Positions 3,801 to 64,000 of a DNA stretch of 64,000 bases are shown piece by piece. Numbering within the stretch: position 1 is the stretch's first letter; each line of letters begins with the position of its first letter. Source of the stretch: Chaetoderma sp. LZ-2023a (lineage: Eukaryota; Mollusca; Caudofoveata; Chaetodermatida; Chaetodermatidae); assembly GCA_034401795.1 (NCBI GenBank), contig CM067366.1:82986116-83050115 (forward strand), in the 5' to 3' direction. Under the pieces are notes generated by a model. That model did no database searches and was not told the DNA's origin. It saw nothing but the letters and a program-made list of their open reading frames with translations. Position numbers and translations under genes: made by a program.

Positions 3801-3833
3801 TCAAGAGAACATTTGCATATACACATACATATA

Positions 3834-5134
3834 CTGGACAAAAAAAGTTAGGGATCACGAAGTTTTTTCAGTATTGTTAGAAACATTCGATATAACAGAC
3901 ATATACAGATTCGAAATGATAACTAACAGCCTCTGCTGAATCCATATTTAATGACAGTTTTGAAATTGATTTGTCAGCAATGCATCACATAGGTGTTAAT
4001 GAAAGGCATCCATGAAACAATGAGAATTCATGATTGCAAGTCAACAAGCGTATAAACGTGTGTCACTCCAAATCAGTCCATATGCACTTTAGTAACGAGT
4101 GTGACCTCCACGTGCAGCCACGACTGCTTGACAACGCCGCTGCATGCTGTTGATGAGGCGCACGATGTTCTGTTCTGGAAGGTTGTCCCATTCCTGCCTG
4201 AGAGCAGTTTCCAGGTCATCCAGAGTCATTGGGGGCACCTGGCGTTGTGAAATTTGTTGTTGAAGCTGGTCCCACACATGCTCAATGGGGTTCAAGTCAG
4301 GTGATACTGCTGGCCACTCCATTCTCTCTATGGTCTCCCTCTCAAGGTACTGTGTGATAACTCGAGCACGGTGAGGCCGAGCGTTGTCATCCATGAGAAC
4401 AAAGTCAGGACCCACAGCTCCAGCAAACAATCTCACAACTGGATGAAGGATTTCATCCCTATACCGGATGGCATTCAGAGCTCCATTCCTGATAGCAACC
4501 AGTTCAGTGCGACCAGTCAAAGAAATCCCACCCCAAACCATCACTGAGCCCCCTCCGAAATGGTCATGTTCAGCGACCATACACTGTGCATACCGTTGTC
4601 TGGGTTCTCTCCACACATGTCTGCGACCATCATGGAAATCTAAACAGAATCTGGATTCATCAGTGAACAAAACTGGCTGCCAGTGACGTCTTTGCCATCT
4701 AATGTGATTACGAGCCCATTCCAGGCGAGCTTGTCGATGATGTAGGAGTAGCCTTGGTCTCACAGCTGGCCTGCGAGCTCTAAGATTGGCTCCGTGAAGT
4801 CGGTTCCTCAAAGTCTGGGGTGTTATCTGAACATCTGTAGCAGCATTGAACTGTCTGTTGAGAGAACGTGCACTATCAAAACGATGTCTCCTGGCTAAAG
4901 TGACGATATACCGGTCTTGGCGGCGTGTTGTGGTACGTGGTCTTCCACTTCTATGCCTCTCATCGACAGTTCCAGTTGCTTGAAACTGTGTCCACAACCG
5001 GGATATCACACTTTGCGAAACACCAAGTGCAACAGCCACCTGTCTCTGTGTTTGGGCAGTTTGGATCATTCCAACTGCTTGATTTGCCTCACAAGCTCGT
5101 AAATGTCTTCTTTGCAGCATTTTGTAAAGGTGGT
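3834..5134 (-). mobile_element. Tc1-type DNA transposon, copy A (cut by the gap)
   Basis: The outer end is seen at 3834 (CTGGACAAAAAAAGTTAGGG) after a TA at 3832-3833. The element holds an intact transposase on the minus strand. The other terminal repeat is lost at the assembly gap. Copy B (10331-11918) shows both ends and gives the expected length of about 1.59 kb. Confidence 0.88.
4089..5120 (-). CDS. Tc1/mariner transposase (DD34E), intact
   Basis: The enzyme cuts and rejoins DNA at the terminal repeats to move the element, inserting at TA. The frame is open for 343 codons from the Met at 5120 (MLQRRH). Longer reading from 5141 uses bases that copy B lacks, so I chose 5120. The N-terminal half holds a helix-turn-helix pair (Q-VAVALGVSQSVISRLW) and a GRPR motif near residue 60. 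The catalytic residues are D154 (FTDESRF), D245 (MDDNARPH) and E280 (NPIEHVW), with 34 residues between the second D and the E, which defines the DD34E Tc1 group. Length and motif order are those of a full Tc1 transposase. The duplicate copy is frameshifted, so only this one could be active, provided its missing right end exists beyond the gap. Confidence 0.92.
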   Translation of the reverse strand: MLQRRHLRACEANQAVGMIQTAQTQRQVAVALGVSQSVISRLWTQFQATGTVDERHRSGRPRTTTRRQDRYIVTLARRHRFDSARSLNRQFNAATDVQITPQTLRNRLHGANLRARRPAVRPRLLLHHRQARLEWARNHIRWQRRHWQPVLFTDESRFCLDFHDGRRHVWREPRQRYAQCMVAEHDHFGGGSVMVWGGISLTGRTELVAIRNGALNAIRYRDEILHPVVRLFAGAVGPDFVLMDDNARPHRARVITQYLERETIERMEWPAVSPDLNPIEHVWDQLQQQISQRQVPPMTLDDLETALRQEWDNLPEQNIVRLINSMQRRCQAVVAARGGHTRY

Positions 5135-5151
5135 AACACACGTGTCATGCG

Positions 5152-5651
5152 NNNNNNNNNNNNNNNNNNNNNNNNNNNNNNNNNNNNNNNNNNNNNNNNN
5201 NNNNNNNNNNNNNNNNNNNNNNNNNNNNNNNNNNNNNNNNNNNNNNNNNNNNNNNNNNNNNNNNNNNNNNNNNNNNNNNNNNNNNNNNNNNNNNNNNNNN
5301 NNNNNNNNNNNNNNNNNNNNNNNNNNNNNNNNNNNNNNNNNNNNNNNNNNNNNNNNNNNNNNNNNNNNNNNNNNNNNNNNNNNNNNNNNNNNNNNNNNNN
5401 NNNNNNNNNNNNNNNNNNNNNNNNNNNNNNNNNNNNNNNNNNNNNNNNNNNNNNNNNNNNNNNNNNNNNNNNNNNNNNNNNNNNNNNNNNNNNNNNNNNN
5501 NNNNNNNNNNNNNNNNNNNNNNNNNNNNNNNNNNNNNNNNNNNNNNNNNNNNNNNNNNNNNNNNNNNNNNNNNNNNNNNNNNNNNNNNNNNNNNNNNNNN
5601 NNNNNNNNNNNNNNNNNNNNNNNNNNNNNNNNNNNNNNNNNNNNNNNNNNN
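5152..5651. other. Assembly gap, 500 N
   Basis: Exactly 500 Ns, a length typical of a fixed-size scaffold gap rather than a measured one. The last 17 bases before it (5135-5151) do not match the duplicate copy. Reading frames that appear to cross it are artefacts. Confidence 0.98.
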
Positions 5652-6314
5652 ACGACACGACGATGTTGGCAGCAACAGCATCCAGGCAAAAATATTCAAC
5701 ATCCAACCTAATCGATCCAACACAAGCGAGGTGTGGGTGGAGTTTAGCTAGAGATGGATGTGGAATAGCTAAAACTGGAAATGTCCATTACCATACTAGG
5801 TTGAGTTATATCAAAGGGGTGAGCTTCATGATCCACTTATGTTATGTTAAGATTTTTATGAGCTGTTGCAATTTTATGCACGTTTTTAAGAAATGACACA
5901 AAATTATTTATACTTTTTTTGCATTTACGTCTTAAGATTTACTTTGTTTGTTTTTCTTGGTTTATTTTGTTATCAAATTTTAATTGATAACTAATTAGTG
6001 AATGTTAATCTTTCTGAACTATACAAGTGATATATATATATATATACAAACAAATATAGTGCACTATTTCTAAATAATCAACGATCAAACACAATGAAAG
6101 GATGTGTCACTCAAGTATCTGATTAGATATTATTATCATAATATATCACTTGTTATCTGATGTCACAATCGTGACAATCAAATAATGTAAGTATGTCTTA
6201 AAGATTGAAATGTCTGTCAGTAAAGTGTACAAATTTAATGAACATTCGCTTGAACATTTTTGCTCCCAGTCAAATTAGTTTTGAAATATTGAACAGCTTA
6301 CATGTATAGTTACA
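5652..6314. other. Non-coding spacer between duplicate copies
   Basis: It starts with half of a P2 palindrome (GGCAGCAACAGC ... AAATATTCAAC), followed by the usual P2 flank (GTGGGTGGAGTTTAGCTAGA). The rest is AT-rich with a short TA run near 6030-6048 and another P2-like scrap near 6268-6300. I see no gene. Confidence 0.7.
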
Positions 6315-8528
6315 TTAAAATTTAGGTTATGGAAATTCAGCTTTCAAATCGATTCCAACACACGTAAGAAGTGGGCGGAGCTTAGCTAGAAATGGATCCC
6401 TCTTGTGGTAGGTGAATAGTCTGTTATCACCGACACCTGCTTTGAGACGGTAGCGGGATTCAGTTTTTGCTTAACACTTTAGCACTCATGTCAGCAAAAA
6501 AATGGCTTCTGAAGTCATCTTGAGAAATGTCCATCTGCAAACCAAGAGAAGACTATTTTGATAAATTTACCACTGTAATGACTGGCTCGATGATCGAGCC
6601 AGTCATTGCAGTGGTAATTTTTCAAATATAGTTTGCTCTTGGTCTGCGATTGGACATTTTCTATGAGAAAATTTAACTTTTCTTGACATATTTGAGGGTT
6701 AAAGGGTTAAGTATATGCATCTATGCAAATGTTGGGGTTTCATTCAATATCTTCGCCTAAACTTGGGAGTTCATTGATGAAATTTTGTGTCTAGGTTGAC
6801 AACAGGCATTACAGGGCTAGGAATAAAGCTTATTACTTTTTAGTCTGCTCATCCATCCATCTGTCAGTTGTGCCTCAATCCTGTATTATGTATGCGTGCA
6901 GATTTGTGGTTTTCCTTCATTAACCATGTATGACTGAGTTTTTGCAGATAACATATTCCAGGGGTTATGTCCTCTGGACTGGCTAAAATATTTTGAAAAC
7001 AATTTGAATGAAAGTTGTTGCGGCTGAGCCACCAACAACCTTCAGTCAAATTTCTTTTAAAATATTCAGCACATAAGGGATTTTGCTCATTGCATAGTTA
7101 ATCATTCCACACATCATGGTCTGTGTTCATTTTTTCCATCCATTCTATCAGAGTTCTTTTAAGCGTAGTAGTTATTATTAGAGGCTTAGGTTACATTAAT
7201 CTATATTAGTGCATCTGTTAGATGTAGTGATGTGTTGACAGCTATCTGAGAAATGTTGGCTTATCAATGCCACCACCGTCTGCAAGATGTATAACATTTT
7301 ATCATATACCTAAGCCACTATGTGCCCATTTCTGTCACTCATCTACATCAGATCTCTTCTACAGTAGTTAAACCAGTAAACATGTTCCTGCCATAAATCT
7401 AGTTGCCATGGGTAGGCCAAGCGGAGTTCTAAACAACTTCTCTTTTAGATAATAAAGAAATAGTAGTTACCTCTCCAGGATGTAGAAATTGTTGGCTAGG
7501 CCGCCAACAACTTTCAGTCGAATTGTTTTCAAAATATTGAACAAGTCAAGAGTTTTTGAAAATTGAAAATTATTGGCTGCACTTGCTTGCAGCAGTGAGA
7601 CAGTTAAGAAACCACCTGTTGTTAGCACTGATATCATCTATTTCGCTTAAACATTGTTCAAAATCACTAATGCAAAAAAACAGTCCAGAGATTGTTGTCA
7701 GTATCTCGAAAACAAAACCATTTGACTGAAAGTCATTGGAAGTGACACCAATGGATGTAAAACCTTATGTAAGATTAGTTGAAATGCCAATGTTACAGTT
7801 GAGTGATACAGGCCCATTGGGCCTCTTGTTCTCTATGCGATAAAATTAAATAAAAATGGATGATTTAATCGTCTAATTTGTTCAAGAAAGTTTAAATATC
7901 TGCCTATTGAATGTCCAATTTACAGGCCAAGAGAATACAATTTTTGAAAATGTATCACTGGAAAGACTGGCTCGGCTATCGAGCCAGTCATTTGAGTGGT
8001 AAATTAAAAAAAATTGTATTATCTTGACCTGTAAATGGACTTTCACAAGACCATAACAGAGACGGTTTTGGCCGACATGACCATTAAAGGGTTAAGGTCA
8101 TAATGACTGAACTATTTAAAATCCTTTAGTGGTAAAAAATTGTGATCACTTCCAAAGGCCAGTTTTGGGCAGCTTGACCATTAAAGTGGTAAAAGTATGA
8201 AGAAGGGAAAATGTCATCAAAGCTTATAAAAATATGTGAAAATTTACATTTTTATTGAGATTCTGAAACCTGGAGCAAGAATTGTTGCAGAATTTGGTGT
8301 CCTGGTTGCAGTGATACTGGAGATAAGACAATCTCATGCTGTGGCATGTGGGTATTGAGACAGCAATGTCCAGAGTGGAGTCAGAAGCTTGCTTGTTTCC
8401 TATTGAGTGAACATCGGAGAAGAATTTGTTGTTTGTCCCCTTCTTTCACATGTTCTTGTATCGGTTTTTGTCTCACCTGTGAAGCAGAAAGCGAGACATA
8501 GGTATCACTTTACCGACATTACGGTTCT

Positions 8529-8975
8529 GCGTTTAGCAAAACTTCTCAGCTTATATTTCAGGATTAGTTAAGCCTATTGCAACTAAACTTGGATACCTGG
8601 TTAACTGTAATGATACGAAGCAGCCTGATGATGTTGGGGTCACAAGGTCAACAGTCAAGGTCACTGACCTTGATACAGAACTGTTATTTCAACATTAAGT
8701 TTTTGCGTATAGCAAAACTTCTCAGCTTATATTTCATGATTGATTAAGCCTATTCAACTAAACTTGAATACATGGTTACCTATAATCTTAGGAAGCAGCA
8801 TGATGATGTTGGCGTCACAAGGTCAGAGGTCAAGGTCACTGACCTTGATACAGAACTCTGCTTTTTCAACATTATGTTTTTGCGTTTAGCAAGACTTTTC
8901 AGCTTCTATTTCAGGATTGCTTAAGCCTACGGCAAATAAACTTGGATATGCCAACACTTCAACCATGTTGGGATC
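8529..8975. repeat. Tandem 176-bp repeat, copy B (one unit more than copy A)
   Basis: Unit starts are marked by a GCG at 8529, 8705 and 8882, a period of 176-177 bp. TCAAGGTCACTGACCTTGA palindromes lie at 8655-8673 and 8830-8848. Copy A has one unit fewer. Confidence 0.8.
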
Positions 8976-10330
8976 GATCGATCCCTGAACTACATGACTA
9001 TCAATTTCCAGAGAACTATGGCAGCAAAAGTTCCCAGTCGAATTAGTTTCAACATATTCAACAGGTTTATTAAATAGGAAAGACATCGATCGATCCCTGA
9101 ACTACATGACTATCAATTTCCAGAGAACTATGGCAGCAAAAGTGCCCAGTCGAATTAGTTTCAACATATTCAACAGGTTTATTAAATAGGAAAGACTTAC
9201 AAGAACGCTTAGTCTGTCATCAATTAAGCATTTGTCATGAACAGCTACGTCGTTCATGTCATAATTGATTATGTTGTCATCCTACACATCACATAGTTGA
9301 TTGATTATGATGTCATATGATTGATGGATAAACTAATCCTCCATTAACCCTGTGTCAAGGGCATGGGATAAAGTCAAACCTTTAATGGTCACAAAAATTG
9401 AGACTTGTCTTAGTAAATGTCTATTTACAGGCAAAGTTTTTTTTGTAAAAAATTACCACTTGACTGACGGACTCGGTTATCGAGCCAGTCCTTTCAGTGA
9501 TAGTTTCTAAAGAATAAACTCTTGGCCTGTAAATGGACATTCCTGAAGATTAGGTGATGTCAGCAGTCATTTGTTTGACAAAGACTGCTATAGGATTAAA
9601 TAATATTATGGAAGGTTAACAACTTATACCTTTTATTCAGTGTAATGAAATTCCGTCTTGGAATGTAATTTGTGCACGTATCTAATCTGTGATCTCGTTG
9701 TGGACCAAAGTGTATTTATTTAATATCAATGTCATTATATAATTATCAGTGTGAAAATAAAATGTCATATCCAGTCAAAACTTTAATCTTACATCAATAG
9801 TGCACCCAATGCACTACTGAACCCCACCACTGACATCAATAATGGCTGTAAAACATCATAGCAGTTCATTACTGATGGTGATATTGGCTCCAGTGCGCAA
9901 CAGCAGCCCACCTCTGACATCAATATTGGCTCCAATGCACCGCTGAAGCACATTCCTGATGTCATATTGTCTCCAATATACCGTCTTGAAAGTTGGTTTC
10001 TGGATGATATCTCTGTTACCATTTATCGGATCACTTCCTAGGGTCGTTGGAATATGTCTGGTGAAGAAACTTATCGGAATTTATGATAATCCGAAATACA
10101 ATATGGCCGGCAGTCATCTTGAAAATTGGTTTCCAGACGATAACTCTTTCACCGTTTAACGGATCGCTTGGACACTTCATAAGGATAACTGGTCTAATGG
10201 GTCTGAGGAAGAATAAATATTTTCTGATAGCTCTCATTCATTGGTTTATCATCATGGTGGGGTATTATGCACGGTTTGCGGAGCTCTTGTTTTATATTCA
10301 AGAGAACATTTGCATATACACATACATATA

Positions 10331-11918
10331 CTGGACAAAAAAAGTTAGGGATCACGAAGTTTTTTCAGTATTGTTAGAAACATTCGATATAACAGACATA
10401 TACAGATTCGAAATGATAACTAACAGCCTCTGCTGAATCCATATTTAATGACAGTTTTGAAATTGATTTGTCAGCAATGCATCACATAGGTGTTAATGAA
10501 AGGCATCCATGAAACAATGAGAATTCATGATTGCAAGTCAACAAGCGTATAAACGTGTGTCACTCCAAATCAGTCCATATGCACTTTAGTAACGAGTGTG
10601 ACCTCCACGTGCAGCCACGACTGCTTGACAACGCCGCTGCATGCTGTTGATGAGGCGCACGATGTTCTGTTCTGGAAGGTTGTCCCATTCCTGCCTGAGA
10701 GCAGTTTCCAGGTCATCCAGAGTCATTGGGGGCACCTGGCGTTGTGAAATTTGTTGTTGAAGCTGGTCCCCACACATGCTCAATGGGGTTCAAGTCAGGT
10801 GATACTGCTGGCCACTCCATTCTCTCTATGGTCTCCCTCTCAAGGTACTGTGTGATAACTCGAGCACGGTGAGGCCGAGCGTTGTCATCCATGAGAACAA
10901 AGTCAGGACCCACAGCTCCAGCAAACAATCACAACTGGATGAAGGATTTCATCCCTATACCGGATGGCGTTCAGAGCTCCATTCCTGATAGCAACCAGTT
11001 CAGTGCGACCAGTCAAAGAAATCCCACCCCAAACCATCACTGAGCCCCCTCCGAAACGGTCATGTTCAGCGACCATACACTGTGCATACCGTTGTCTTGG
11101 TTCTCTCCACACATGTCTGCGACCATCATGGAAATCTAAACAGAATCTGGATTCATCAGTGAACAAAACTGGCTGCCAGTAACGTCTTTGCCATCTAATG
11201 TGATTACGAGCCCATTCCAGGCGAGCTTGTCGATGACGTAGGAGTAGCCTTGGTCTCACACAGCTGGCCTGCGAGCTCTAAGATTGGCTCCGTGAAGTCG
11301 GTTCCTCAAAGTCTGGGGTGTTATCTGAACATCTGTAGCAGCATTGAACTGTCTGTTGAGAGAACGTGCACTATCAAAAACGATGTCTCCTGGCTAAAGT
11401 GACGATATACCGGTCTTGGCGGCGTGTTGTGGTACGTGGTCTTCCACTTCTATGCCTCTCATTGACAGTTCCAGTTGCTTGAAACCGTGTCCACAACCTG
11501 GATATCACACTTTGCGAAACACCAAGTGCAACAGCCACCTGTCTCTGTGTTTGGGCAGTTTGGATCATTCCAACTGCTTGATTTGCCTCACAAGCTCGTA
11601 AATGTCTTCTTTGCAGCATTTTGTAAAGGTGGTCCACCGTGGTCAATGTACACGTTAACCAAGGCCTCAATCAGACTCAATCAGATGTCTTCATAAAAAA
11701 ATCAGTCACACCTGTGATCTCTGAAAACACTCAATTTTAGCCACCCTTCACATGTGCTGCACGCTTGCACGTGAAAAGTGAAATTGACAACACACGACAC
11801 CGTCCATGTCTCAATGACCAATAAAAGAAGTAAACAAAAGCTGTTTTCACTTGATCTGAGCCGTTTACCAGAATATACTCAAAATATAATCCATGATCCC
11901 TAACCTTTTTTTGACCAG
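10331..11918 (-). mobile_element. Tc1-type DNA transposon, copy B (both ends present)
   Basis: The terminal repeats are CTGGACAAAAAAAGTTAGGG at the left and, read inward from the right, CTGGTCAAAAAAAGGTTAGG. Both are flanked by TA (10329-10330 and 11919-11920), the target duplication of this superfamily. The length is 1588 bp. Its right end abuts the 14-bp satellite, and the left flank (CATATACACATACATA) resembles that satellite, so it probably inserted at the edge of an existing CATATACA-rich tract. Confidence 0.92.
10586..11619 (-). pseudogene. Tc1 transposase, frameshifted copy B
   Basis: Same protein as at 4089-5120, broken by four small indels relative to it: an extra C near 10768, two missing bases near 10929, two extra bases near 11260, and an extra A near 11380. 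All lie in homopolymers or short repeats. They may be real decay or uncorrected read errors. The three catalytic residues are still encoded, in separate frames. Confidence 0.88.
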
Positions 11919-29918: not shown

Positions 29919-32900
29919 ATACAATTATCCCATAGAATCCTACACCAAATATTGTAGCTGTGTACCACTTTTCAAGCTTGAAACGATTTGACAAGTGCCC
30001 TGATAATCCGCATGTTACTGTAATAAACCTTTTGTAACTTTTAACCATTTCAACCATCCAAGCGTAATATAAAATAATTTCACTATTATGAAGAAAGAAT
30101 TTAATTATAATAATCTGAAACTAATTTAACTATAAGAAGCTGTTACTTGCTGCCGCAACAAGTTCAACTCAAGTTAATTTAGAGATGTACAACGGCTTAT
30201 CAATAAAGCAGTATTAACACTTTCAATCCTGCATACCGAATTCCTTATTATGTGGGAAATATCCGGTTGCAAATTTGAAATAAAAAGACTACCATTTCCA
30301 AATAAACCGAGACTGTACTCCCTAGTAGCAAATGGAACACCGTCTCTATTGTTTAGGAAAACATAAATATTTCAATAATTCATTCATATCATTATAATAG
30401 ACCATCTTGTAGGAAACAATGTTGCCTTAATATGAATTCTCTACTAATCTCGGTAAGACCTCTGCATTTGTAAGTCAATATCTCGCTTTGTCTAAAGGTT
30501 TATCAGATTTAACATCCCTCTCCCCGTCATCACATATTATGTATTGGGCCATCATCATTCGCAAGGGTCATGTTGATGCAGTCCTGAAGGTTACACGCAT
30601 GGTGAATTTCTGTACCATTAGACATCTAGCGAGTTTACGAGATCATCTACATGATATGCATGAATGCCATGAGTAGTTAAGGGTGCGGCTGTGCATCATT
30701 GTTCTTTTCGTTGGAATGTGGTTTTAACCAATCAAAACGCTCCATTTCATTTGCTAGCGTTTGGAGAACAATGGCACTCAGGGGCACATGCATTCTAGAG
30801 AACAATGACGAACAGCGGCACACGTTTTTCTCGATAACAATGACGCACAGCCGCACACGTATTTGAGAATCTGCAACACTGGAATGTTCTATTACTTTGA
30901 ATGAGTTAACCCTTAAAAGTATAAAAGTTGTGTATTTTACGTTTGAACGTAGTGGCAGCGCTCCCCCCTCCGCGGTTATCTACCGTGGTAGATAATGTAA
31001 AAGTAATGAGAGTAATGTAAAATAATAGAGTTTAAGAGGTGGTCTGATAATGGAGGGCGTATGAGGTTGAGGATGTATGAGGAATTACGGTATTGATGTT
31101 TGAAAATAATTTGACTGTTTTGTCGGTAACGTTATTAGTAAACTGTAGAATATTTAGAGACTGCACGTAAGCTGTTAGTAAGGAACAGCTACCATACAGA
31201 TTAGTAACAAAATATTAAAAATAAAATGAGAAAACGGATTGAATTTGTACTGTTTATAGGAATATATGTACTGTGGCCGCAAATCCGCAACATGAGCCCG
31301 CAAATCCGCAACACGCACCCACATGCGGCCGCACATGTATGCATGCATTTTGGCATGTATGCGTGTTCAGGCATGTGCATATAGTTGTTGCCATGCGCAA
31401 CACGCGCCCGCAAATCCGCAACACATTTTAGCCGAATGTACATTAACATTTACATTTATACTACATCGCTCTACTACAAAAAATGTAAGGAATATCATGT
31501 GAGATGACTAGCATCCTATCAAAAACTGTCGCGTATTGACCTCCATATAATGACACATACATGCAGGCGAAAATCTTGGATATGTTCACGGGCTAGACGC
31601 TATGGATCAGTTTGTTAAATGGTTTATGCGCATAAAAATCTGAGCGTTAAAAAAGTATCCAGGGAAATATGTTTTCTCTGACCACCTCGTTATTGTGCAT
31701 AAAGCATCTATGATTCGCTTTTAATCCTTCAATTTGTATGCAAATGCGTTAACCTTCATCTAAAACCCTCAAAACTAAGCGGCTTCCTACCAGTCATTTA
31801 ATTTTTTTAAAAGAGAGCAAAGTACATCTCTATGCAGGTAATATATAGCTAAGCTAAGTGATGTTGTATGCATAATATTATATAGATAATAATCATGCAT
31901 CTCGTATTTAAGGAGTAGTCTTTAAAGTGGCAGTCATTTAATTATTAAAATTTAAAAATTATTATAAAAATGGTGGGAACAATGTCCACCATCGTCATCG
32001 TTGACGAATAATGACGAGCACCCTTGTATCGTTTAATGTCTTAGGTGGTCGATGCGGTCCCTCGTGGTTGTAGTAAAAAAGTATTTTGAAACTAAGTGGA
32101 ATCGTGGCTTCCTATGTCAAATTGTCGCATTGAACAGCACTTTTTTAAGTGTTTGTGCGTGCGCACGAATGCGCTAGTGCGAATTGTAGCTTCCTATGTC
32201 AAATTAGTATCAAAACTATTCACTTAAACTACCAATGCGCCATGATTTAGGTTTGAAAAATCAGAAAATAACATCCCTGGAATGAGTGTAGGGGTGGTCG
32301 CATAATTGAGGTCGAACGAGTTAGGAGGAGGAGAGATGAGGTATGCTAGCGCGGTGCTGCCTGGCACGAGGGATGAGGTATACTAGCATACTTGTTTACA
32401 AGGCCGACAATGCGCGTTGTACAAATATTTTGAAAATAATTTGACTGTGGTGTTAGCGACAACTTTCTATCAAATCATTTCCATGATATTTAGTGAATAT
32501 TTTGAAAATAATGTGTCTGTCTGCATCAACTTTTGCTAAAATCGTTTCCATAATATTTTGCTAGGAAGTAGATCCCTGGAATGTCTGAAACACCTCGCCA
32601 GTCAGCCAGTTAAAGGTAATAAAACTAGGAAAAATTACCATGTCTGGGTACACGCAGTATGAATGCATTATGAGTACCTTGTCAATGAGAACCTGACAAC
32701 AAAAATAATACATTATTAATACATTGCGGCTGCAATCAGCTACTACCAATACCGACCAACATCACCATCATCACCACCATCACCATCCCTCTATCACCAC
32801 CAGCACCACCACCTACTAAGCACCAACACCCACCACCAAGCATTAACCCCACCACCATCATCCACCACAACACCTATTTTCATCAACCGCTAACCCCACC

Positions 32901-35900
32901 ACCGCCACCACCACCAACAGCATCAGCACTCCGATTTGTATATCGAGGGGTGTGGGGGGACCCGGATGGGAAGCTACAATCATCAAACACACGCATAAAG
33001 AACCAATGTTTTATTTGCATACATATTTTCACATTGAAGTAAATATTACATATGATAAAACGTATAGTTGCAGTAGCATAAACAAATAGTCAATGTTCTG
33101 GAGATCCATTTATCGATGACTGATTCCTTATGGATCAGATCTATCGCCGACAGAATCATCATCATTATCCTCAGCATCTAGATGGTTCCTTATGTACTTC
33201 TTGGTCAGAAACTCTCTTTTTCGAAAAGCTGAGAAGACTGCTTCATGGTATGCGTACCCCTCGTCGATAAAATCTTTAATTTCCTGACGAATTATTTTAA
33301 TGAGCGTAGAGTTCTGTAATCTTCTCGACTGGAGCATTATGTCTATACACTTTGTAACTAAAGCATCAGCATATACGGAAATAGGCACATTGCCTACACC
33401 ATGCGGGTCTGTGTCCACTTCGCCATCCTCATCTTCTAAACCTGATTGTTCAGCGTCTAAGACCTGCTTAATATTTTGGAATATGGTAAATAGTTCCTCA
33501 TTGCCTATGTCTTCTTTTTCATCTTCACCTTCACCTTCACTCTCAGTCTCCGCTGAGTCATTACCGGCTTCACTCTCCGACTCCGCTGGCGCATCATCTT
33601 CACTCTTCATCTCTGTCATTTCTTCATCTTCACTGTCTAGATTTTCGCTATCTTCATCGTTATGGAATCGGATCTTATGCCGCTTCAGGTCATTTGACCT
33701 ATTAAAAGTTGAACCACATTCAAAACATTTATGTCTCGGCATATTGATTATAGGCTAAATCTAGCAAGTTACAAGGTTCTTCAAAGAAATCTGACTGCCT
33801 TACTACTCTGCAGTTACACGTCCAACCACTTTGCGATGTTTAAACTGGAATGAGAAAAGGGATTGAATTTGTACCGTTTATAGGATTATATGTACTGCGG
33901 CCACAAATCCGCATCATACGCCCGTAATCCGCAACATACGCCCGCAATCTGCATCATGTGCCCACAATCCGCAACATATGCCCGCAAATCCGCAAATGCG
34001 GCCTGCACGTGGCCGCACATGTATGCATACATTTTGGCATGTATGCATGTTCAGGCATGTACATACACTTGGTGCCATCCACACCACACACCCGCAAATC
34101 CGCATCATGCGCCCACAATCCGCAACATACACCCACAAATCCGCATCATACGCCCGCAATCCGCAACATACGCCCGCAATTCGCATCATGCACCCGCAAT
34201 CCGCAACATATGCCTGCAAATCCGCAAATGCGGCCCGCATGTGGCCGCACATGTATGCATGCATTTTGGCGTGTATGCATGTTCAGGCATGTACATACAC
34301 TTGGTGCCATCCGCAACACACACCCGCAAATCCGCATCATGCGCCCGCAAATCCGCAACATACGCCCGCAAATCCGCATCATGCGCCCGCAATCCGCAAC
34401 ATACGCCCGCAAATCCGCAAATGCGGATCGCATGCATTCGCACATGTATGTATGCATTTTGGCGTGTATACGTGTTCAGGCATGTACATACACTTGGTGC
34501 CATCCGCAACACGCACCCGCAAATCCGCAACATACGCCCGCAATCCGCAACATACGCCCGCAATACGCAACATATGCCCGCAAATTCACAACATGCGGAC
34601 CGCAAGCGTTCGCACATGTACGTATACATTTTAGCCAGCAGAGCCAGTCATTCCGATGATAAATTTTCAAAGATAGTCTTCTGGTGCACGCATGCGCACA
34701 AGGGCGCACACCGCGGCATGCACGCATGCACAAGGGTACAACGTATAACTAGCAGTATCGCGTATTAGTACGTGTTCATACGAGCGTGACCTATATTTAA
34801 CCTTCATGACATACCCTCTCCAACCTAGATATCAATTTTCAGACACCTCGCTCTCACACATTACGACCACAATGTCTAGACAAATGGATAGCTTTCAGAG
34901 TCAGTCATTCCGATGATAAATTTTCAAAGATAGTCTTCTCTAGGGCTGCAAGTATGAGTATTAAAAAATTCGCTATGGGTTGTCGGGTGGGTGGGTGGGT
35001 GTTGGTGGTGGGGTTAATGCCTGGTGTTGGGTGTAGGTCATAGTGTTGCACGCACGCACCTATGCACAACGTATAACTAGCAGTATCGTGTACTAGCACG
35101 TGTGCATACGAGCGAGATGTTTATTAAATCCTCATGACCCTCTCCAACCTATATGCCATTTTTTCAAACACAGAGCTCTCACACATTCCGATCACAATGT
35201 CTAGATAAATGGATCGCTGTCAGAGTCAGTCATTCCGGTGATAAATTTTCAAAAATAGTCTTCTCTAAGGATGCAAGTATGAATATGAAGAAATTCGCTA
35301 TGGGTTGGCGGGTGCATGGGTGGTGGTGGTGGTGGGGTTAATGCATGGTGTTGGGCGTAGGTCGTAGTGGTGGTAGTGGTGGTGGTGGTGGTGGTGGTGG
35401 TGGTGGTGGTGGTGTTGGTGATGATGATGGTGGTTGGTGGGGGGTGTTTGCCGGCGCAATGACTAGACAAATGGATAGCCTGCAGTGCCAGTCATTCTGA
35501 CAATAAATTTTCAAAAATAGTCTTCTCTTGTACTACAAATATGAATATGAAGAAAATGGACATTTTCTTGAAGAAATTCGAGGGTTAAAAGGGTTAAGAA
35601 AGTCTCTAGCGTCCATGTAATGGCGCAACACGAGGTGGTCGCTTAGGGCAGGACTGAATTATATAGTAAAAAACATGGTTATAATGTATCACTGCTCTGT
35701 AGCCAAAAGGATATATTTATATTTGTAGTAAGCGGTCATCTATGATTATGCTACTACGCTCAAAATGTTGCTCTTAATTGTCGTATCTTTAAGCGTCGGT
35801 AAACAGCAATAGCCGGTGAGCGGGCGTTATTATCGATTTTTACAAACTCTCGGCGAGGACATTGTAATATCCCGTGCTTAGAACGAGACGGGTGGTATAT

Positions 35901-38900
35901 TCTTATAGTATTCCTTAACACATGACATGTTTGTATCTCGATTCAAGATTGATCTTGGTGCTTTAACATTCTTTCGTTATTAACACGTGCCATGTTTGTA
36001 ACTCGATTAAGGACTGATCTCACGGCTATTCAAGACGCAACAAATAATCTTTTTAGCATAAGTACGCTCTACATACAATTCTATAAACGGAACCTTCAGA
36101 GACATAATTACCACATTTTAACCGTCGTATCTAAAACGATTGACGTTATTGCAAAGTATTTAAAAAACAATGTACGCGTAATAACGGTTAAAAGTCAATC
36201 AAAATATTTGACAAAAAAAGTTTTACTAATAACGTTAGCGACGTCAAATTAATTTCAAAATATTCAACAGTTTACCTGTATGGTATCGATAGAAAATGAA
36301 CTATATATTCATCGGTGAAAGGGTTAACTTCTTTTTAACCCAGGATACAATCCATCACTACCAAGTCTTGGTTACCATTCCAACCGTACATACCATTAAT
36401 ACATTATTTTTAATATTTTGTTGCTAATCTGTCTGGTAGCTGTTCCTTACTAACAGCTTACGTGCAGTCTCTAAATATTCTACAGTTTACTAATAACGTT
36501 ACCGACGAAACAGTCAAATTATTTTCAAACATCAATACCGTAATTCCTCATACATCCTCAACCTCATACGCCCTCCGTTATCGGACCACCTCTTAAACTC
36601 TATTCTTTTACATTACTCTCTTATTACTTTTACATTATCTACCACGGTAGATAACCGCGGAGGGGGGAGCGCTGCCACTACGTTCAAACGTAAAATACAC
36701 AACTTTTATACTTTTAAGGGTTAACTCATTCAAAGTAATAGAACATTCCAGTGTTGCAGATTCTCAAATACGTGTGCGGCTGTGCGTCATTGTTATCGAG
36801 AAAAACGTGTGCCGCTGTTCGTCATTGTTCTCTAGAATGCGTGTGCCCTTGAGCGCAATTGTTCTCCAAACGCTAGCAAATGAAATGGAGCGTTTTGATT
36901 GGTTAAAACCACATTCCAACGAAAAGAACAATGACGCACAGCCGCACCCGTAACTACTGCCATGATGATTTTCAGTTCAATTATCCCTTGAATGCAAAGG
37001 CTTACTATTTCCACTACAGCTATTCATTCATGATTGTTTTTGGGAGCGGATGCATCAGGGCAGGTAAGGAGAATATACGTCCATTTGACACTTTGTTAGT
37101 TTCGCCTAGAACATGGTGATGAAAACCTTCTTCACATAGAGATGGTTGTCCTGGATTTACTATCCATTTTATTGCACATATGAAATGGTAGCTGGGTTAA
37201 TTTACATGACAGATTGGAGTGCTGGTACCATACACAGCACAACCTCTAAGAGGACTGTAAAGATGTCATATCCCAAGTGTAATTGGTCCCTCCATGATAG
37301 AAACGGGCATTGAAATGCTTGACATGGGCGAGTGTGCTTAACTCCCTTGAATTAGTCTTAGCTTGAAAAGACAGAGATCTCAGTATTGTTATGAATAAAT
37401 GTAATCACAAGAATTAGATACACACACTATTTGCAAATATACCATTTTGTTTGTTGACACTGATTAGCATAGTCCGTCTCTAAGGCTCTTTGCACCATGG
37501 TGCATGTAGATGGCACAGTTAATTTTGGTCATGCCAGTTCGGCATATAATCAGCACATCTGCCTTCCCTGGTACAATCATTGTATCCTGTGTCTGCAGCA
37601 TGGTTAGTGTGTAGGAGCATACTGGTGTCAGCTTTTCCATGTGTTGAATTAAGTGGTACAATTTCCTGACATATTCCCAGGATATATATATCAAGTACAA
37701 AATGATATGGTCAATCTATTCTAGTCTTGTTCACCAGTCGTCCACAAAGAAATGGATCAGCCAGTCCTTGCTGGTTAGACATGACAGCAGATGACTCAAT
37801 ACTTGTTTGGCGCTACACGAAGACGAAGTTGAGGATGGTTCATTTTGGTGAACTGAATGGTGTCTGGAATCCAGCATCCAGGTTCCAAGAACTCAGTACT
37901 GTTAAATTTCTTTAATGCTTTGATGGGTCGAAATGCACAGTCCCAGGCCTCTGGCTGTACTGTATGGGATGCAATTATTTTGGAGAAGAAGATCCCACCA
38001 TCTGGACCCATACTGTGACGTTTCTGCGAAATCTGATTGTATCAATGACACTCGCTAGAGTTTGCCTCAGTAATGAAACCTGTTTCTCAAGATATCTAAC
38101 CAGTACTTAATTACAAGATTACCATGTAGGTTATTTATTCAGGTGGTTGTTGATGAAAGAGTTAAGGCATAAGTCAACTAATCGTCAACAAATGCAGTAT
38201 ATGCAGTTTCTCTTTTTGTGGGCCTTTAGGGACGTTTAATATGCCAGGTGGTATAGATATATTTTACGAATATACTCCACATATCACAATCACTTAAACA
38301 AATAGATCAAGCTAATTGTTTTCACGTAAGACAGCAACTGATTGAACATTTGTTGTGTCACTCTGAATACAGAATGTTGATCAATCAGGACAGCAGATGC
38401 CACGCGCGCCTACAAATTCTATCTAATCACGTAGCTGTCTCAGGTACATCCTGCGATATTCTTCTGGCATGAAACACTTAGAAACACCTGCGTTTTGTGT
38501 GCCCCTATTAACTGTTTCATCCACAGTTTGATTGATGGTATCCTGCTAAACGTATCGATTCCACTAATATGGGCAGAGATTCCACCATATTACATTGTTT
38601 GTGAATAACATGATGGTGACCATTCAGTAACCTTACCATATGGGCATGTTACACAGATGGGTATGGGTATACTTTGTTTATTGTAGGCTTATGCGAATCA
38701 CCATGTAACCATGTGGATTAATGCTGCTGGTTTTGCAGTTTGTGCTTTATAAACATATAACGCGAGCTTTTGGATTGCTAATGGAATTATCCATTTCTGG
38801 CTATAACCTGGCGATTTTTAGCTAGGCTCCGTCCACTATTTACGCATCTTAACCAACCATTTTCATGCTTTCATTTTATCATTACTTAATTTTACCGACT

Positions 38901-51861: not shown

Positions 51862-52148
51862 TAGGCGTCATTAAAAGCATCAGAGCATCATTTTTATCTC
51901 GCCTTTCAGGAAGTGAAAAAGAGCTTTTGGGAGACGGGGTGGGGGTGGAAATGTTGGCGTCGGCGTTGGCGTCCGCTCTGGGTAAGCTTTCTATAAAATG
52001 ACAACGGGTTGTCCAATTAAAAAAATCTTTCATAGATGCGTTCCATACGATGCTTAGGACTAGTCTGCATCACAATTATACCGATTTGTGAAAACTTTCC
52101 AGGTTAAGTTTTTTGCTGTGTTTTAACATTGCAAATTTGTTCTATAAA
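51862..52148. other. Spacer without recognised content
   Basis: Contains a short GT-rich patch (51935-51985). No gene. Confidence 0.4.
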
Positions 52149-53531
52149 CATGCGCACTGAATACGTGGCACCGCTAACATCTCCCTCTGCGAGAGGTTGT
52201 GACCCCACAACCTCCGCATGTCGCAAACTTCCTTTCCTTGGTAAAACGGCAGTGGTTGGTTGTAGCACCTCCACTGAAACAGCGTTTATACAAGCACCAC
52301 GACCCGCCGCCAAAGCGCTTAATACCCGGTGCCCCTTGGTGGTATGAAACTCACAGGTCCTAACAGCATCACCCACCGCATCTAGCAGCAATAACAGCGA
52401 CACGGACAGCAGTCAGCCTTCAGCAACATGGATCCACAAGAAGAAGCATTATCCGAAGAGTGGAAAACCACAGTGCGCCGCTGCTTCTTTTGCGCATCCA
52501 CTAAACATCCTATGATGCGTTGTCAGAAGTGACTAACACAGCTGGCCCTTATCCGCGACCGCACCAGTCATGTCCAGACTGCTGTCTATACCAATTCACG
52601 ATACAGCACACCAGCATCAACAACACCGCCATTGCTACCCCCCAGCTCCGTAATCGCCTAAGCAATCACAGCAGCGGCGACGAGTTCGTTTCTTCCTCAC
52701 TCAGCCACCAATTGCATTCATGGAAGCTATTAAAAAGAAAACGGACTACATACAGGATGATACTGCATTAAAATAAATCCATCAGGCAGTATCATTGGAA
52801 AGTCCTCCACAAGCACACCGCAAAGTAATATACAAGTGTATAGATGCCCTGCTCGGTGCTGTCTTCCTCAGTGCCAGCGAAGCCGTCATACATTGCAGAC
52901 AACAGGAATTAGACATACACGGCCGCCGCATACCCCTTGGACCGGAATCATCACTGTACGACACGTGTGCAGTGATTTTGGCATCTACGGCCACAGTTGG
53001 GCTGTGACAAGAGGAAATATTATGGGTCACTGCACCACAGTTAGGAAGCAACACACACACAACCGTGCTGTAACGCGACCCCGATTACATGATCACCTCA
53101 CAATGCGCAAGTCCCTGGATGAACGTGAACACCACCACCAAGGATCATATACCATTTAGGGTATTCAATGGCACAGCGGACCCGATAACACTAGTACCAG
53201 GAGCTCGTTGTGGCCATCTGGTGGATGTGATATTATTGGGGACACCCCTACCGCACCTACACCAACAACAACTTCTGGGGATGATTTACCCGAACACCTG
53301 CATGACATTTATTTGCGCGCTACAGTTGGTTTAACTCAATCTCACAAACGTGACGTACGACATATATTACATAAGTATCATGAAAGTTTTTTGGCTGGAG
53401 ACATGGATCTGGGAGAAACTCACCTCGTGTGAAAGACTACATTGACACTGGAAATAGTCGACCCGTTCGGCAACCGGTACGACGTCTTCACATTCACAAG
53501 GATGTGGAAGCACATCAACAAGTGAATGACA
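52149..53531 (+). mobile_element. Ty3/gypsy retrotransposon fragment, plus orientation
   Basis: Covers the gag-to-protease linker and the beginning of the reverse transcriptase. LPEHLHDIYLRATVGLTQSH near 53285, a KRDVRHILHKY block and a DLGETHLV block near 53405 fit the N-terminal lead of a gypsy reverse transcriptase. The protease catalytic region present in the facing copy is deleted near 52855. It ends abruptly where the minus-oriented copy begins. Confidence 0.8.
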
Positions 53532-53550
53532 GGGGGTGTCTCCAGTGATA

Positions 53551-54188
53551 TCACATCCACACTAGTGTTATTGGGTCCGCTGTGCCATTGAATACCCTAA
53601 ATGGTATATGATCCTTGTTGGTGGTGTCCACGATCTTCCCGAGACTTGCCCATTCCGCTTGTCCCGGCTCAACTGTGGCCGTAGATGCCAAAATCACTGC
53701 ACAAGTGTCGTACAGTGATGATTCCTGTCCAAGGGGTATGCGGCGGCCATGTATGTCTAATTCCTGTTGTCTGCAATGTATGACGGCTTCGCTGGCACTG
53801 AGGAAGTCAAAACTGAGCACGGCATCATTTTGAATAGAGGCAATTACAACTCGCTTTATGAATTGCAGTTCCTCTATCTGTATGACGAGGTTTACCGTAC
53901 CAGCCACAGGAACATCGGCTCCGGTAGCTGTTTGTAAAATATGTTTGTGGGCCTAAGGGGTGGCTCTTTATGAGGTTGGATGCTCTCATACAAGCGCTTG
54001 TTAAAAACGGTGATGGAAGCTCCAGTGTCTACGGTGGCACTGGTCGAAACGCCACTAAACAGGCAAGCACACTTGTATATTACTTTGCGGTGTGCTTGTG
54101 GAGGAGTTTCCAATGATACTGCCTGATGGATTTCTTTTAATGCAGTATCATCCTGTATGTAGTCCGTTTTCTTTTTGATAGCTTCCAT
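53551..54188 (-). pseudogene. Gypsy aspartic protease region
   Basis: Carries the catalytic DTGA triad (VDTGASITVF) with D at about 54029, in a frame of about 98 codons. A frameshift near 53900 separates it from the following stretch (RVVIASIQNDAVLSFDFL, then GRRIPLG). This is the only copy of the catalytic site in the window. Confidence 0.75.
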
Positions 54189-54869
54189 GAGTGCAATTGG
54201 TGGCTGAGTGAGGATGAAACGAACTCGTCGCCGCTGCTGTGATTGCTTAGGCGATTACGGAGCTGGGGGTAGCAATGGCAATGTATCATGGGATGTTTAG
54301 TGGATGCGCAAAAGAAACAGTGGCGCACTGTGGTTTGCCACTCTTCAGATGATGTTTCTTCTTTCGGATCCATGATGCTGAAGGTTGACTGCTGTCCGTG
54401 TCACTGTTACTGCTGCAAGATGCGGTGGGTGATGCTGTTAGGACCTGTGAGTTGCATACCACCAAGGGGCACAGGGTATTAAGTGCTTTGGCGGCGGGTC
54501 GGGTGTGCTTGTATAAACGCTGTTTCAGTGGAGGTGCTACAACCAACCACTGCAATTTTACCCAGGAAGGAAGGTTTGTGAGATGCGGAGGCTGCGGGGT
54601 CACAACCTCTCACAGAGGGAGATGTTGGCGGTGCCATGTATTAAGTGCACATGGTTGGCACCAACTTATGTGAAGCCGGGTGTGTGTGGTTGTGTACTGT
54701 CGTGTAAGTAGTATTTTGAGTTGTAGTGTTAGCCACCTGACGTTGTTGTCTGGAGGCCGTCGTTGAGCTGGGTTGTGAGAGTGGGCACCGAAGTGACTCT
54801 ATAATTGGTACCCATTCTAGTTTAACGAGGAATCAGGTTGCTGTGTACGTCGGTCAGCTTTTGGAGTTG

Positions 54870-58478: not shown

Positions 58479-60223
<1,745 letters not shown>

Positions 60224-61305: not shown

Positions 61306-62076
61306 TCAGCGTGCAGATATGAAGGGTGAGGATGCTATCACCACCTCTACCGGCTTCTTCCCGATTAGCCTAGTAACCTCGGCATTGGATCTCTCCACCA
61401 CAGCAGGCAGCCCTCTCACCCATCCTCTAGAACGTTCACTCGGCGTGGCCATTTCCTGGGCATATTGGTGTGGGAACAGTCTCTCTGCCAGTGTCCGATT
61501 CCACAGCTCAACGATAGCCTGGGCATGGTGATGCCCTACCTCGCCTCGCCTAACTGCCACACTGTGTTTCTGCATGAGGGCTGCAGTCTCCCCTCTGAAC
61601 TCCTTACTCTCATCCACCTGCAACAATTCTGGCCACTGGAGGGGATTTTCCGAAGCCTCGTAGACACCGTGGAATGCCGGGGCCACCTGGCCAGCTGACT
61701 TGTCTGTGAGCGGTACTGCCACCTTGTACCTGCTGGCGACATCGACGATGGTGAGGGCATACTTGTAGGTCTTACGACCAACCGAGTCATGTGGAAGGAA
61801 TAGAACATTTGCCTGGTGAAATCTGTTCGGGACAGTTTCCTCGAAATGGGCATGCCTGATGCGACGTGGACGAGGTCTGTATATCTGCCACATTGTCTGG
61901 TGGCTGAGCCACTGGCTAACTGTCTCCAATGTGAAGTTGTGCCCCTTGCGACGTGCAGCCTCGAGTAGTTGAGCGGGCTCACAGTAATATCCATCAGGCT
62001 GATAGTAGAGTTCATCAAGAAAGACGGTTGATAAACTCGCAGATTTCATCACTGACGTCCACTCCCGTCCTGTCAC
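61306..62076 (-). CDS. Polinton/Maverick integrase (rve type), first catalytic residue altered
   Basis: The enzyme joins element ends to host DNA. The frame is open for 256 codons. The core domain runs from about residue 85: ANVLFLPHDSVGRKTYKYAL, IVDVASRYKVAVPLTDKSA, LLQVDESKEFRGE and AIVELWNRTLAERLF. D155 and E190 form the second and third catalytic positions with 34 residues between; position 90, where the first Asp is expected (QAD-VLFLP in relatives as I remember them), is Asn, so this copy should be inactive. NAEVTRLIGKKP closes the domain. The N-terminal 80 residues show no clear zinc-binding site. Neighbouring frames support a Polinton context. Confidence 0.8.
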   Translation of the reverse strand: MTGREWTSVMKSASLSTVFLDELYYQPDGYYCEPAQLLEAARRKGHNFTLETVSQWLSHQTMWQIYRPRPRRIRHAHFEETVPNRFHQANVLFLPHDSVGRKTYKYALTIVDVASRYKVAVPLTDKSAGQVAPAFHGVYEASENPLQWPELLQVDESKEFRGETAALMQKHSVAVRRGEVGHHHAQAIVELWNRTLAERLFPHQYAQEMATPSERSRGWVRGLPAVVERSNAEVTRLIGKKPVEVVIASSPFISAR

Positions 62077-62254
62077 GCATGGCCTGGGTGAACTCTAAAC
62101 AGACGCCCGTCATTCATTCGACCATCACTGAAGACCTCCTCAAACACCTCCGTACACTGGCATCAAATCTCTGCTGGATCCTCACTGAATGGTAGTTTAT
62201 CGATCAACCCTTGGAAGTTAAGGGACTTGATCAAGTCATACACAGACGCCATCC

Positions 62255-62745
62255 TTATATAGCATGGCTTAAATGTTCGGCGGCCCAGATGGCCACGAGT
62301 GCTATGGCAACGTACGGTAGCCAATGGCCTGCGACTCCGAAGAACATACCTACACCTGAGGCGATGGCTTCAGAAATCTTCTCCACCCCATGGAGAGCAT
62401 TGTTGGCGATCTTGCGCGCCGTCTCGCCAGCCTTCATTGTGAACAGAGCGATCAGAGCCCCAACTGCTGCCAGCGGACCGATAGAACCTTTTACATAAGT
62501 GCGATAGATTCATTTCACTCTGTGTACTAGCTTGCGGGATTCAGATGCAGTCTCCTCTACATCATCATACTCACCCACAGTCTCCGCTACATCGTAGTCG
62601 TCTGCATCATAATCCTCCTCCTCATCATAGTCCTCCTCATAGTCCTCATCATCTATATCCTCGACTGGATCAGCCTCTGGTTCATACATAAACTCTGGGT
62701 ATCCATCGCTGGGGCAGTTATATAGTAGCTTTAAACTGTAGTCTA
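62255..62745 (-). pseudogene. Acidic membrane protein of the Polinton relic, one stop
   Basis: From about 62745 downward the minus strand reads a strongly acidic region (DPVEDIDDEDYEEDYDEEED), a basic turn, a stop near 62510, then IGPLAAVGALIALFTM, an amphipathic part (KIANNALHGVEKISEAI), and a hydrophobic close (WLPYVAIALVAIWAAE). The composition suggests a virion or membrane-associated protein. I cannot name it. Confidence 0.5.
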
Positions 62746-62749
62746 TAGC

Positions 62750-63130
62750 ATGGCCTCCGCAATCTTGAATGCGGGCGTGTTTGCCTTAGCGAACTGGGGA
62801 CTCAGCTTCGCTGACAAGAAGGCGGCAGAGGTCGCGCGTGAGCATCATAGCCAGGCGATGGAGAAGCTGTCTAAGGAGAAGTTTGAGTACAGCAAATCAC
62901 TCGAGCATATACGCCAGAGTGAGGCACACTGACGACAACTCCAAGCTCAGGCCAACAAGAGCCTCAAAGAGGCAGATGAGAGTCTCGATGAGTACTACAA
63001 GGCTGTAAAGATATCTGAGCCAACGCTCGACTATTAAGCATCGACAGGTCAGAAGACAGCAGAGCTTATAGTAGTGGTGGCAGCTGCAGTGGTGACGACA
63101 GGAGTCGTGCTCTACGCACGCTCAAGCTGA
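62750..63130 (+). pseudogene. Coiled-coil protein with C-terminal membrane segment, two stops
   Basis: Starts MASAILNAGVFALANWGLSF, followed by a long charged helical part (KKAAEVAREHHSQAMEKLSK onward). It continues in the same frame past stops near 62930 and 63034 to a hydrophobic end (LIVVVAAAVVTTGVVLYA). It lies head to head with the acidic protein. I have a memory of similar proteins in animal Polintons but cannot assign a role. Confidence 0.45.
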
Positions 63131-63206
63131 ACACCTGATGTGTTCGACACGCATACCGTAGCATAGCCAAAGTAAAGTACCGTCACACCTAATGAGCGAG
63201 TCCCAG

Positions 63207-64000
63207 CTATGAGGGTTCTGATTTTGAAGCTGAGCCGGTTGCCCTGATTAGGTGGGATGTCCCTGCCCCGAGGTGGTGACGGCCTTCGAGTGCCAACTCT
63301 AGGTCGTCACTTCCACTGGTTAGTCGCAGAAGTGCATATGACTTAGTTTTCTGTCTGTAGAGTTGGCAATCAGCCAGCTCGCGTACCTCACCAAGAACAT
63401 TGGTCCCAGCAACCCCAAGCTTGAAGTCGTCTAGCTTATCCACCTGCTGGATGGCTCCTCCCTTCTGAACCAGGACCGCAACAGTGACACAGTCTGATGC
63501 ACCATGATGCAATGTCAGCTCTACCCGTTGGTTAGCTGTGGCTTGGACCTGCTGGTGTTCTCGCTCCACATGCACGATCCGCTGTTTGGAACCCGTTTGC
63601 TTCAGCTCCTGGTCATTCTCGTCATGCAAGTCATTAAGTCTTGGAGCACTCATCGTCGCATCTGCGAGCTGCTCAGTGTACACCCGGAGGAACAGCCTAT
63701 CCTGCATGGCAGCCGGATTCACGTGTGTGTTCTTGAGGAGGGTTAAGAGTGGAACTGCCACAGGCTTCTCGACACCTGCCTGTAGTTCGAATTCTGTGAA
63801 ACCCTCATTGCACCCCACATCGTAGTACCCCTTTCCCTTTGCATAGAAGGTTGGACCACGAGCCAGCGGACCTAGGACTTGGTACTCATCATTCACATGT
63901 TCACATAGGCGGTGTCCACGGTGCTGTTGCTCTGCATGATCTCCCACCTGTTGAGAACCTGCGGGAGTTCTACAGTCTGTTCTATTGTGCTCTGAAGCTT
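63207..64000 (-). pseudogene. Larger protein of the Polinton relic, running off the window
   Basis: The minus-strand frame is open from about 63895 to the stop at 63207, with blocks such as GPTFYAKGKGYYDVGC, FELQAGVEKPVAVPLLTLLK, LFLRVYTEQLADA, VTVAVLVQKGG and KLDDFKLGVAGTNVLGEV. Upstream of a frameshift near 63895 the coding pattern continues in another frame to the window edge. Beta-rich composition and position fit a structural (capsid-type) protein, but I see no diagnostic motif. Confidence 0.45.

Follow-up and report, generated by a model that had tools for sequence, protein, structure and literature searches.

The element and its ends

The DNA considered here, called the window throughout, is a stretch of 64,000 nucleotides from the caudofoveate mollusc Chaetoderma sp. 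LZ-2023a (assembly GCA_034401795.1, contig CM067366.1, positions 82,986,116 to 83,050,115). It contains an element of 6287 bp (30672-36958) that lies between two inverted repeats and encodes one credible protein, a zinc-finger (ZF) protein of the C2H2 type. This element is very probably a non-autonomous, satellite-like member of the Polinton/Maverick family, with full-size relatives in the same genome. The coordinates of its features are collected in Table 1.

The terminal inverted repeats measure 555 bp each and share 97.8% identity (541 of 553 positions identical in the arm-to-arm alignment, together with one 2-bp offset), and a perfect 6-bp duplication, GCCATG, stands immediately outside them. 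An earlier note on this DNA had described near-identical repeats of about 554 bp with this same duplication, which is confirmed here; the 'AG...CT' termini that it gave fit the ends, the actual motif being more specific, AGTAGT...ACTACT or (AGT)2//(ACT)2. A scan of the window for Maverick-type ends, taken as (AGT)2 or (AG)3, yields 255 pairs of matching 6-bp ends spaced 2-30 kb apart, among which this pair alone has identical 6-bp flanks. According to PMC8097293, Maverick ends carry (AGT)2//(ACT)2 or (AG)3//(CT)3, the former being the commonest of three types in vertebrates, where the duplications are of 6 bp and the terminal repeats of 46-1447 bp; the authors connect this doubling with the jumping back that occurs when replication is protein-primed. 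The ends and the duplication of the element are thus those of the published Maverick/Polinton signature. Just inside the end, the motif GTGCGGCTGTGCNTCATTGTT occurs in both orientations, where shuffled sequence is expected to give none, and a further diverged unit lies at 30759-30793. Searches of phage records with the left repeat, and of viral contigs with its motif, gave nothing useful, and two viral-contig matches to an 18-base repeat pattern were judged to be due to chance.

The core genes of a Polinton are undetectable between these ends. No Polinton gene was matched in the element by four protein pieces of the contig JANQFH010000027.1 (L001) and 12 open reading frames (ORFs) of a full-size relative described below, whose polymerase, integrase, protease, ATPase and capsid-like ORFs all remain without a counterpart; Pfam models run over all 20 stop-free stretches of at least 70 codons returned matches below the cutoff only. 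Neither the protein-primed polymerase nor the rve integrase of an autonomous Polinton has a match in the element, and the claim of the earlier note that no polymerase, integrase, protease or capsid can be recognised is borne out by both kinds of query. What does persist is a 189-bp relic of a Polinton polymerase gene. Its match, L039:4367-4172, falls within a polymerase gene region, none of 50 shuffles matches at 1e-5, and the same relic is found in 8 of the 22 repeat-bearing stretches introduced below (L014, L015, L022, L025, L026, L032, L037 and L038).

Table 1. Features of the element in window coordinates; the TATAAAAG, AATAAA and TATA-like entries are sequence matches only.
Feature	Position	Strand	Remarks
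Target-site duplication, left copy GCCATG	30666..30671	.	
Left terminal inverted repeat, 555 bp, starts AGTAGT	30672..31226	+	97.8% to right arm; 92% to end of 17.2-kb Polinton
Subterminal repeats, 21-bp motif GTGCGGCTGTGCNTCATTGTT	30683..30856	.	forward at 30683, reverse at 30801 and 30836
TATAAAAG box, reads inward	30920..30927	+	mirror copy 36703-36710, minus strand
Left CCGCAA-containing repeat cluster	31277..31440	+	adjoins second copy of promoter-like block (31212-31303)
Relic of Polinton polymerase gene, 189 bp	31585..31773	-	69% to L039:4367-4172 in an alignment of 198 positions, E 2.7e-15
AATAAA polyadenylation-like signal, downstream of ZF stop	33010..33015	-	
ZF gene, 204 amino acids	33128..33742	-	single C2H2 finger at N-terminus, then an acidic region; C-terminal helices predicted with low confidence
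TATA-like box, upstream of ZF gene	33877..33882	-	
Main array, 20-bp CCGCAA-containing units, upstream of ZF gene	33901..34635	+	
325-bp repeat, 1.9 copies, runs into GGT tract	34738..35440	+	
Sequence inside right repeat, continued inside full-size Polinton end	35966..36403	+	35966-36958 vs L024:1270-263, 90%
Right terminal inverted repeat, 555 bp, finishes ACTACT	36404..36958	-	
Target-site duplication, right copy GCCATG	36959..36964	.	

Shared ends on full-size and short copies

Searched against the 2.44 Gb of the host assembly, the left repeat matches at least 41 places at 87-100% identity, 40 of 2808 first-look candidates having been scored; here and below, totals beyond the scored matches are first-look candidates and not confirmed copies. 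The analysis covered five intervals bounded by a repeat at either end (L012-L016), a sixth interval represented by its two repeats (L017, L018) and three interior pieces (L019-L021), and, beside unpaired repeats, 17 stretches no longer than 10 kb (L022-L038). Among the 22 repeat-bearing stretches (L012-L016 and L022-L038), five hold Polinton genes, nine hold the ZF gene (in some cases only in part), eight hold neither and none holds both, each stretch being at most 10 kb and thus less than a whole Polinton, with runs of N in L025, L029 and L038. The same terminal repeats bound two kinds of element, one bearing Polinton genes and the other short, devoid of them and in many cases equipped with the ZF gene.

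Both outer ends could be placed in seven copies, the window included. All seven end in AGTAGT...ACTACT, and their flanks agree at all six bases in five copies (GCCATG, GGAGTT, GGGGTG, GATGAT and AGCGCC), at five in one and at four in another, while none of 371 shifted controls agrees at six and four agree at five or more. Five further intervals (L015, L016, L025, L030 and L036), in which the matched repeat stops short of the outer end, were left out of this comparison, and the single end of L035 reads AGGAGT. A different duplication length in other copies, which the earlier note had named as evidence against its proposal, is not what these loci display; other short copies have both the 6-bp duplication and the same gene, two features for which it had suggested checking them. 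The family is wider than the earlier note described, in that short copies lacking the ZF gene belong to it as well, eight of the 22 stretches having neither gene set. Two short copies without it, L012 (G000:C12:198333486-198339382) and L013 (G000:C7:25780718-25787321), have perfect 6-bp duplications and arrays in both orientations, and possibly represent a second short subfamily.

Two other arrangements of the repeats are of a different nature. At G000:C6:1377154-1401215 (L017-L021) two inward-facing terminal repeats stand 24 kb apart with outer flanks that are reverse complements of each other; this pair was considered as a full-size element and rejected, its interior pieces matching neither the helper genes nor the ZF gene and its flanks being mirror images, and it was kept out of the duplication comparison. 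At L028:7416-9755, in a copy bearing Polinton genes, two terminal repeats in the same orientation are 1.8 kb apart and share the 3' flank GTCACATA, which resembles a local tandem duplication.

The stretches with Polinton genes, 5 of the 17 beside unpaired repeats, are L023, L024, L028, L031 and L033, with L023 showing only the protease and part of the major-capsid-like ORF. The earlier note had suggested looking for full-length Polintons that share these terminal repeats; copies with the repeats and Polinton genes are present in the same genome, and one of them was followed to both ends over 17,235 bp (C17:39839112 to 39856346). One of its repeats is 92% identical to that of the element over 553 bp, and the repeat at the opposite end 93% over 415 bp; its termini are AGTAGT...ACTACT, and its flanks agree in 5 of their 6 bases. 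Pfam recognises in it an adenovirus-type protease (Peptidase_C5, 2.1e-4), an integrase (rve, 1.6e-11, and Chromo, 3.4e-13), family-B polymerase frames (DNA_pol_B_2, 2e-19 and 9.3e-16) and, below the curated cutoff, an ATPase-like ORF (Pox_A32, 3.4e-4). The genes run in the order integrase, minor-capsid-like, major-capsid-like, protease, the capsid-like names of two ORFs (434 and 386 amino acids) being given from their position only. Neither of the capsid-like ORFs of L024 has a Pfam match, and the major-capsid-like one has no credible match in the PDB. The ZF gene is in neither piece of the 17.2-kb copy.

Taken together, the ends of the element, their motif, the duplication, about 440 bp inside one end and the polymerase relic are those of this Polinton line. 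The ZF gene takes the place of the Polinton genes, was not found in the Polinton stretches, and belongs to a short form that is present in multiple copies.

The zinc-finger gene and the surrounding sequence

That a ZF protein is the only gene, as the earlier note had it, is upheld: the C2H2 ORF of 204 amino acids (33742-33128, minus strand) is the sole credible gene in the element. When the interior outside the arrays was shuffled 1000 times with a second-order Markov model, 1 shuffle gave an ORF as long, and in a second such set of 1000 a C2H2 pattern arose in 6; G+C at the three codon positions is 0.55/0.32/0.37, a profile that is flat in the four array ORFs compared. The finger matches a consensus finger in the PDB (E 9.7e-8) and zf-C2H2 of Pfam below cutoff, and the fold predicted from the single sequence is poor (pLDDT 52). 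The protein has no match among 5.8 billion proteins and no significant match to the 12 helper ORFs, and a search of viral contigs gave nothing useful.

At least 150 genomic matches to the ZF protein exist (150 scored of 3482 first-look candidates), of which 143 extend from residue 1 to 204 and 112 are free of stops, the list being ranked by protein match and hence biased to intact frames; identity is 91-98% beyond the copy of the window itself. Selection was assessed in nine copies picked by their terminal repeats and not by the ZF gene: the window, L014, L015, L022, L025, L027, L032, L037 and L038. With L035 and the simple repeats at 32744-32940 left aside, these copies differ pairwise by 0.039 in the ORF and by 0.054 in the pooled non-coding sequence (ratio 0.74, 95% interval 0.55-0.92), and by 0.018 versus 0.033 once CpG-type contexts are removed; 4-fold degenerate sites are not constrained, at 1.32 of the non-coding value (0.68-2.06). 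Changes shared among these copies number 14 nonsynonymous (N) and 8 synonymous (S), and those seen in a single copy 44 N and 17 S, counted without L035 (too short) and L026 (no match). A larger set ranked by DNA match, 34 of 40 copies after six with indels were dropped, includes five with a stop. Here the single-copy changes (79 N, 28 S) are neutral, at 0.99-1.26 of the neutral ratio, as would be expected after insertion, and for the shared changes (18 N, 13 S) the N/S ratio is roughly half of that expected under neutrality. An estimate of dN/dS (the nonsynonymous to synonymous rate ratio) of 0.44 from 23 copies was dropped, most of these being stop-free picks ranked by protein match, for which neutral evolution, simulated under an identical ranking, already yields 0.26 (0.13-0.37). 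These comparisons are suggestive, though not proof, of modest purifying selection on the ZF gene while the family propagates.

With both clusters counted, the element has 37 CCGCAA/TTGCGG hexamers, 36 of which read CCGCAA on the plus strand. The helix of the finger bears R15, N17, D18 and R21, a combination of the kind by which engineered fingers recognise GCG. RSDDLVR modules are listed for GCG-containing targets in tool outputs shown in PMC5260015. The four residues are kept in 45, 46, 45 and 42 of 46 fetched copies, a conservation of little weight given how close the copies are, and GCG triplets amount to 88 per kb in the array compared with 14 elsewhere.

Several other repetitive features lie in the window. 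At 1-11645, positions 1-2453 match 6315-8770 (98.6%) and 2198-5147 match 8692-11645 (98.2%), which amounts to a tandem duplication of about 6.3 kb around a gap of 500 N at 5152-5651, either real or an assembly error. A 2.5-kb foldback-like element of nested inverted repeats occupies 52146-54656, with arms 89-98% identical and no clear target-site duplication seen, and two ORFs for Tc1/mariner-type transposases (HTH_Tnp_Tc3_2, DDE_3) are located at 4089-5141 and 59020-59916. A decayed Polinton-type rve integrase of a second lineage is found at 61309-62094, with Asn in the column of the first catalytic Asp, which is Asp in 18 of 18 aligned relatives; further Polinton ORFs possibly lie beside it (62258-63998). 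Being only about 23% identical to the helper integrase, it was taken to represent another lineage and rejected as a helper, and a search for it in viral contigs gave nothing useful.

Origin, proposed mobilisation and known systems

The shared repeats, the stretch at 35966-36403 and the polymerase relic imply that the short form derives from this Polinton line, having lost the core and gained the ZF gene and the arrays. The 'satellite-like non-autonomous derivative' of the earlier note is supported by the terminal repeats shared with copies that bear Polinton genes, by other short copies with 6-bp duplications and the ZF gene, and by the relic. What is less certain is whether the gene contributes anything. 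A plain deletion derivative, an internally deleted Polinton that is copied passively with the ZF frame as a role-less hitch-hiker, is the alternative that we find hardest to set aside, unlikely as we consider it: the short copies without the gene (L012, L013) also have 6-bp duplications, single-copy changes in the ORF are neutral, five of 34 closely related copies contain stops, and the shared-change test is weak. Against it stand the lower divergence of the ORF relative to the pooled flank, which persists outside CpG-type contexts, the coding-type G+C of its codon positions and, with the bias of that list in mind, the stop-free majority of the listed matches.

A gene domesticated by the host, or a captured host gene multiplied passively, would be a distinctly less probable source of the ZF frame. 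Proteins with a single C2H2 finger are common in hosts, and no relative of this one was found in the protein collection; its copies, however, are dispersed over many contigs and not confined to one locus, the gene lies whole or in part near Polinton-type repeats in 9 of 22 stretches, and its single-copy changes evolve neutrally, unlike those of a host gene. A new DNA-transposon superfamily, the other option raised by the earlier note, or membership of IS3EU/GingerRoot, is very improbable and already refuted: 6-bp duplications do occur in the latter, but the ends there are TA..TA or occasionally TG..CA (PMC10045372) and not AGT..ACT, and the terminal repeats common to Polintons, together with the polymerase relic inside, indicate Polinton descent. 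Least credible of all is a genomic inversion or an assembly artefact, which could invoke the suspicious duplication around the N gap and the mirror-image flanks of the 24-kb pair, and which is refuted by independent loci, where 6-bp duplications of differing sequence directly abut the ends of the repeats.

How could a Polinton satellite of this kind be propagated? Mobilisation in trans by Polinton enzymes is probable in view of the shared ends. The doubled AGT triplets would let the protein-primed polymerase of a Polinton start and jump back on the DNA of the satellite, and a Polinton integrase would then insert it through a 6-bp staggered cut. The ZF protein would be kept by selection for the help that it gives to the satellite; its most probable mode of action is the binding of GCG-rich repeats within the element, such as the array upstream of its own promoter and the subterminal repeats; such binding might control its own expression, the copying of the element or the helper promoters in the shared ends. 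The function of the protein, its DNA-binding role included, can be proposed only in such conditional terms. It is a rather doubtful extension of this scheme that the ZF gene marks a genuine molecular parasite of the Polintons, a capsid-less satellite whose self-evolved DNA-binding regulator favours the copying of its own ends, or silences helper promoters in the shared repeats, and that may in this way outnumber its helper.

A number of observations weigh against a Polinton satellite with a selected gene. Direct evidence of mobilisation in trans is absent, and the polymerase of the 17.2-kb copy is split over several frames, so that a working helper is undemonstrated. The other four Polinton copies were covered only partly and may have a ZF gene outside the fetched stretch. 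In L014 and in the 17.2-kb copy just five of the 6 flanking bases agree, and L037 has no matching 6-bp duplication. As for selection, the ratio of 0-fold to 4-fold sites is 0.53 with an interval of 0.31-1.08, and the two short flanks nearest the ORF (0.044 and 0.047) lie nearer to its value (0.039) than the larger upstream part (0.056) does. The shared-change test gives p values of 0.04, 0.08 and 0.13 at CpG factors of 1, 5 and 10, and is thus not significant by itself once CpG hypermutation is allowed for; shared and single-copy changes in the 34 copies do not differ significantly either (Fisher p 0.12). A frame free of indels over 1-612, with no stop reported, is retained in only three of the nine copies (window, L032 and L037), and L037 matches the ZF protein to residue 191 only. 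The density of GCG in the array, finally, does not exceed the dinucleotide expectation, 406 of 500 shuffles reaching the observed value, which leaves the GCG target of the finger a prediction only.

Polintons have been proposed to connect transposons with many DNA viruses. If a multicopy satellite can persist with their ends and a single gene, apparently under selection, it would reveal the Polinton parts that are sufficient in cis, and the element offers a natural system in which to ask whether virus-like transposons are controlled by parasites of their own. In the open-licence literature of PubMed Central (PMC) we found no description of a non-autonomous Polinton that has its own gene, Repbase being outside that search. 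The element resembles the vertebrate Polintons/Mavericks of PMC8097293 in its (AGT)2//(ACT)2 ends, its 6-bp duplication and its repeats of hundreds of bp, and differs from them in size, its 6287 bp (6.3 kb) being below the 12.7-24.6 kb of intact vertebrate copies, and in its undetectable core genes; from the full-size copy of its own genome it differs in carrying the ZF gene. The contig L001, assigned to a bacterial metagenome-assembled genome and probably a eukaryotic contamination of that bin, is like a full-size Polinton in that a Polinton-type integrase adjoins a DNA_pol_B_2 polymerase, although this integrase and its counterpart in the full-size relative here share only about 25% identity, and no ends of L001 were seen.

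Among smaller dependents of larger replicons, virophages and satellite viruses present a likeness: a small genome with a gene of its own that is expected to need a related, larger virus-like genome. The present element, unlike these, comes as integrated copies without detected capsid genes or evidence of particles, the capsid-like, protease and ATPase ORFs of the helper having no match in it and virophage proteins not being among the queries. The repressors encoded by internally deleted P elements offer a second parallel, being short derivatives with a possible regulator that binds ends shared with the parent; the ZF protein, however, is not a truncated protein of the parent, as its comparison with the helper ORFs indicates. 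Non-autonomous elements with terminal inverted repeats, such as Ds and the miniature inverted-repeat transposable elements (MITEs), keep the cis-acting ends and need enzymes supplied in trans, as the present element probably does; unlike them, it has a self-replicating, virus-like transposon as its parent and has kept one conserved protein gene.

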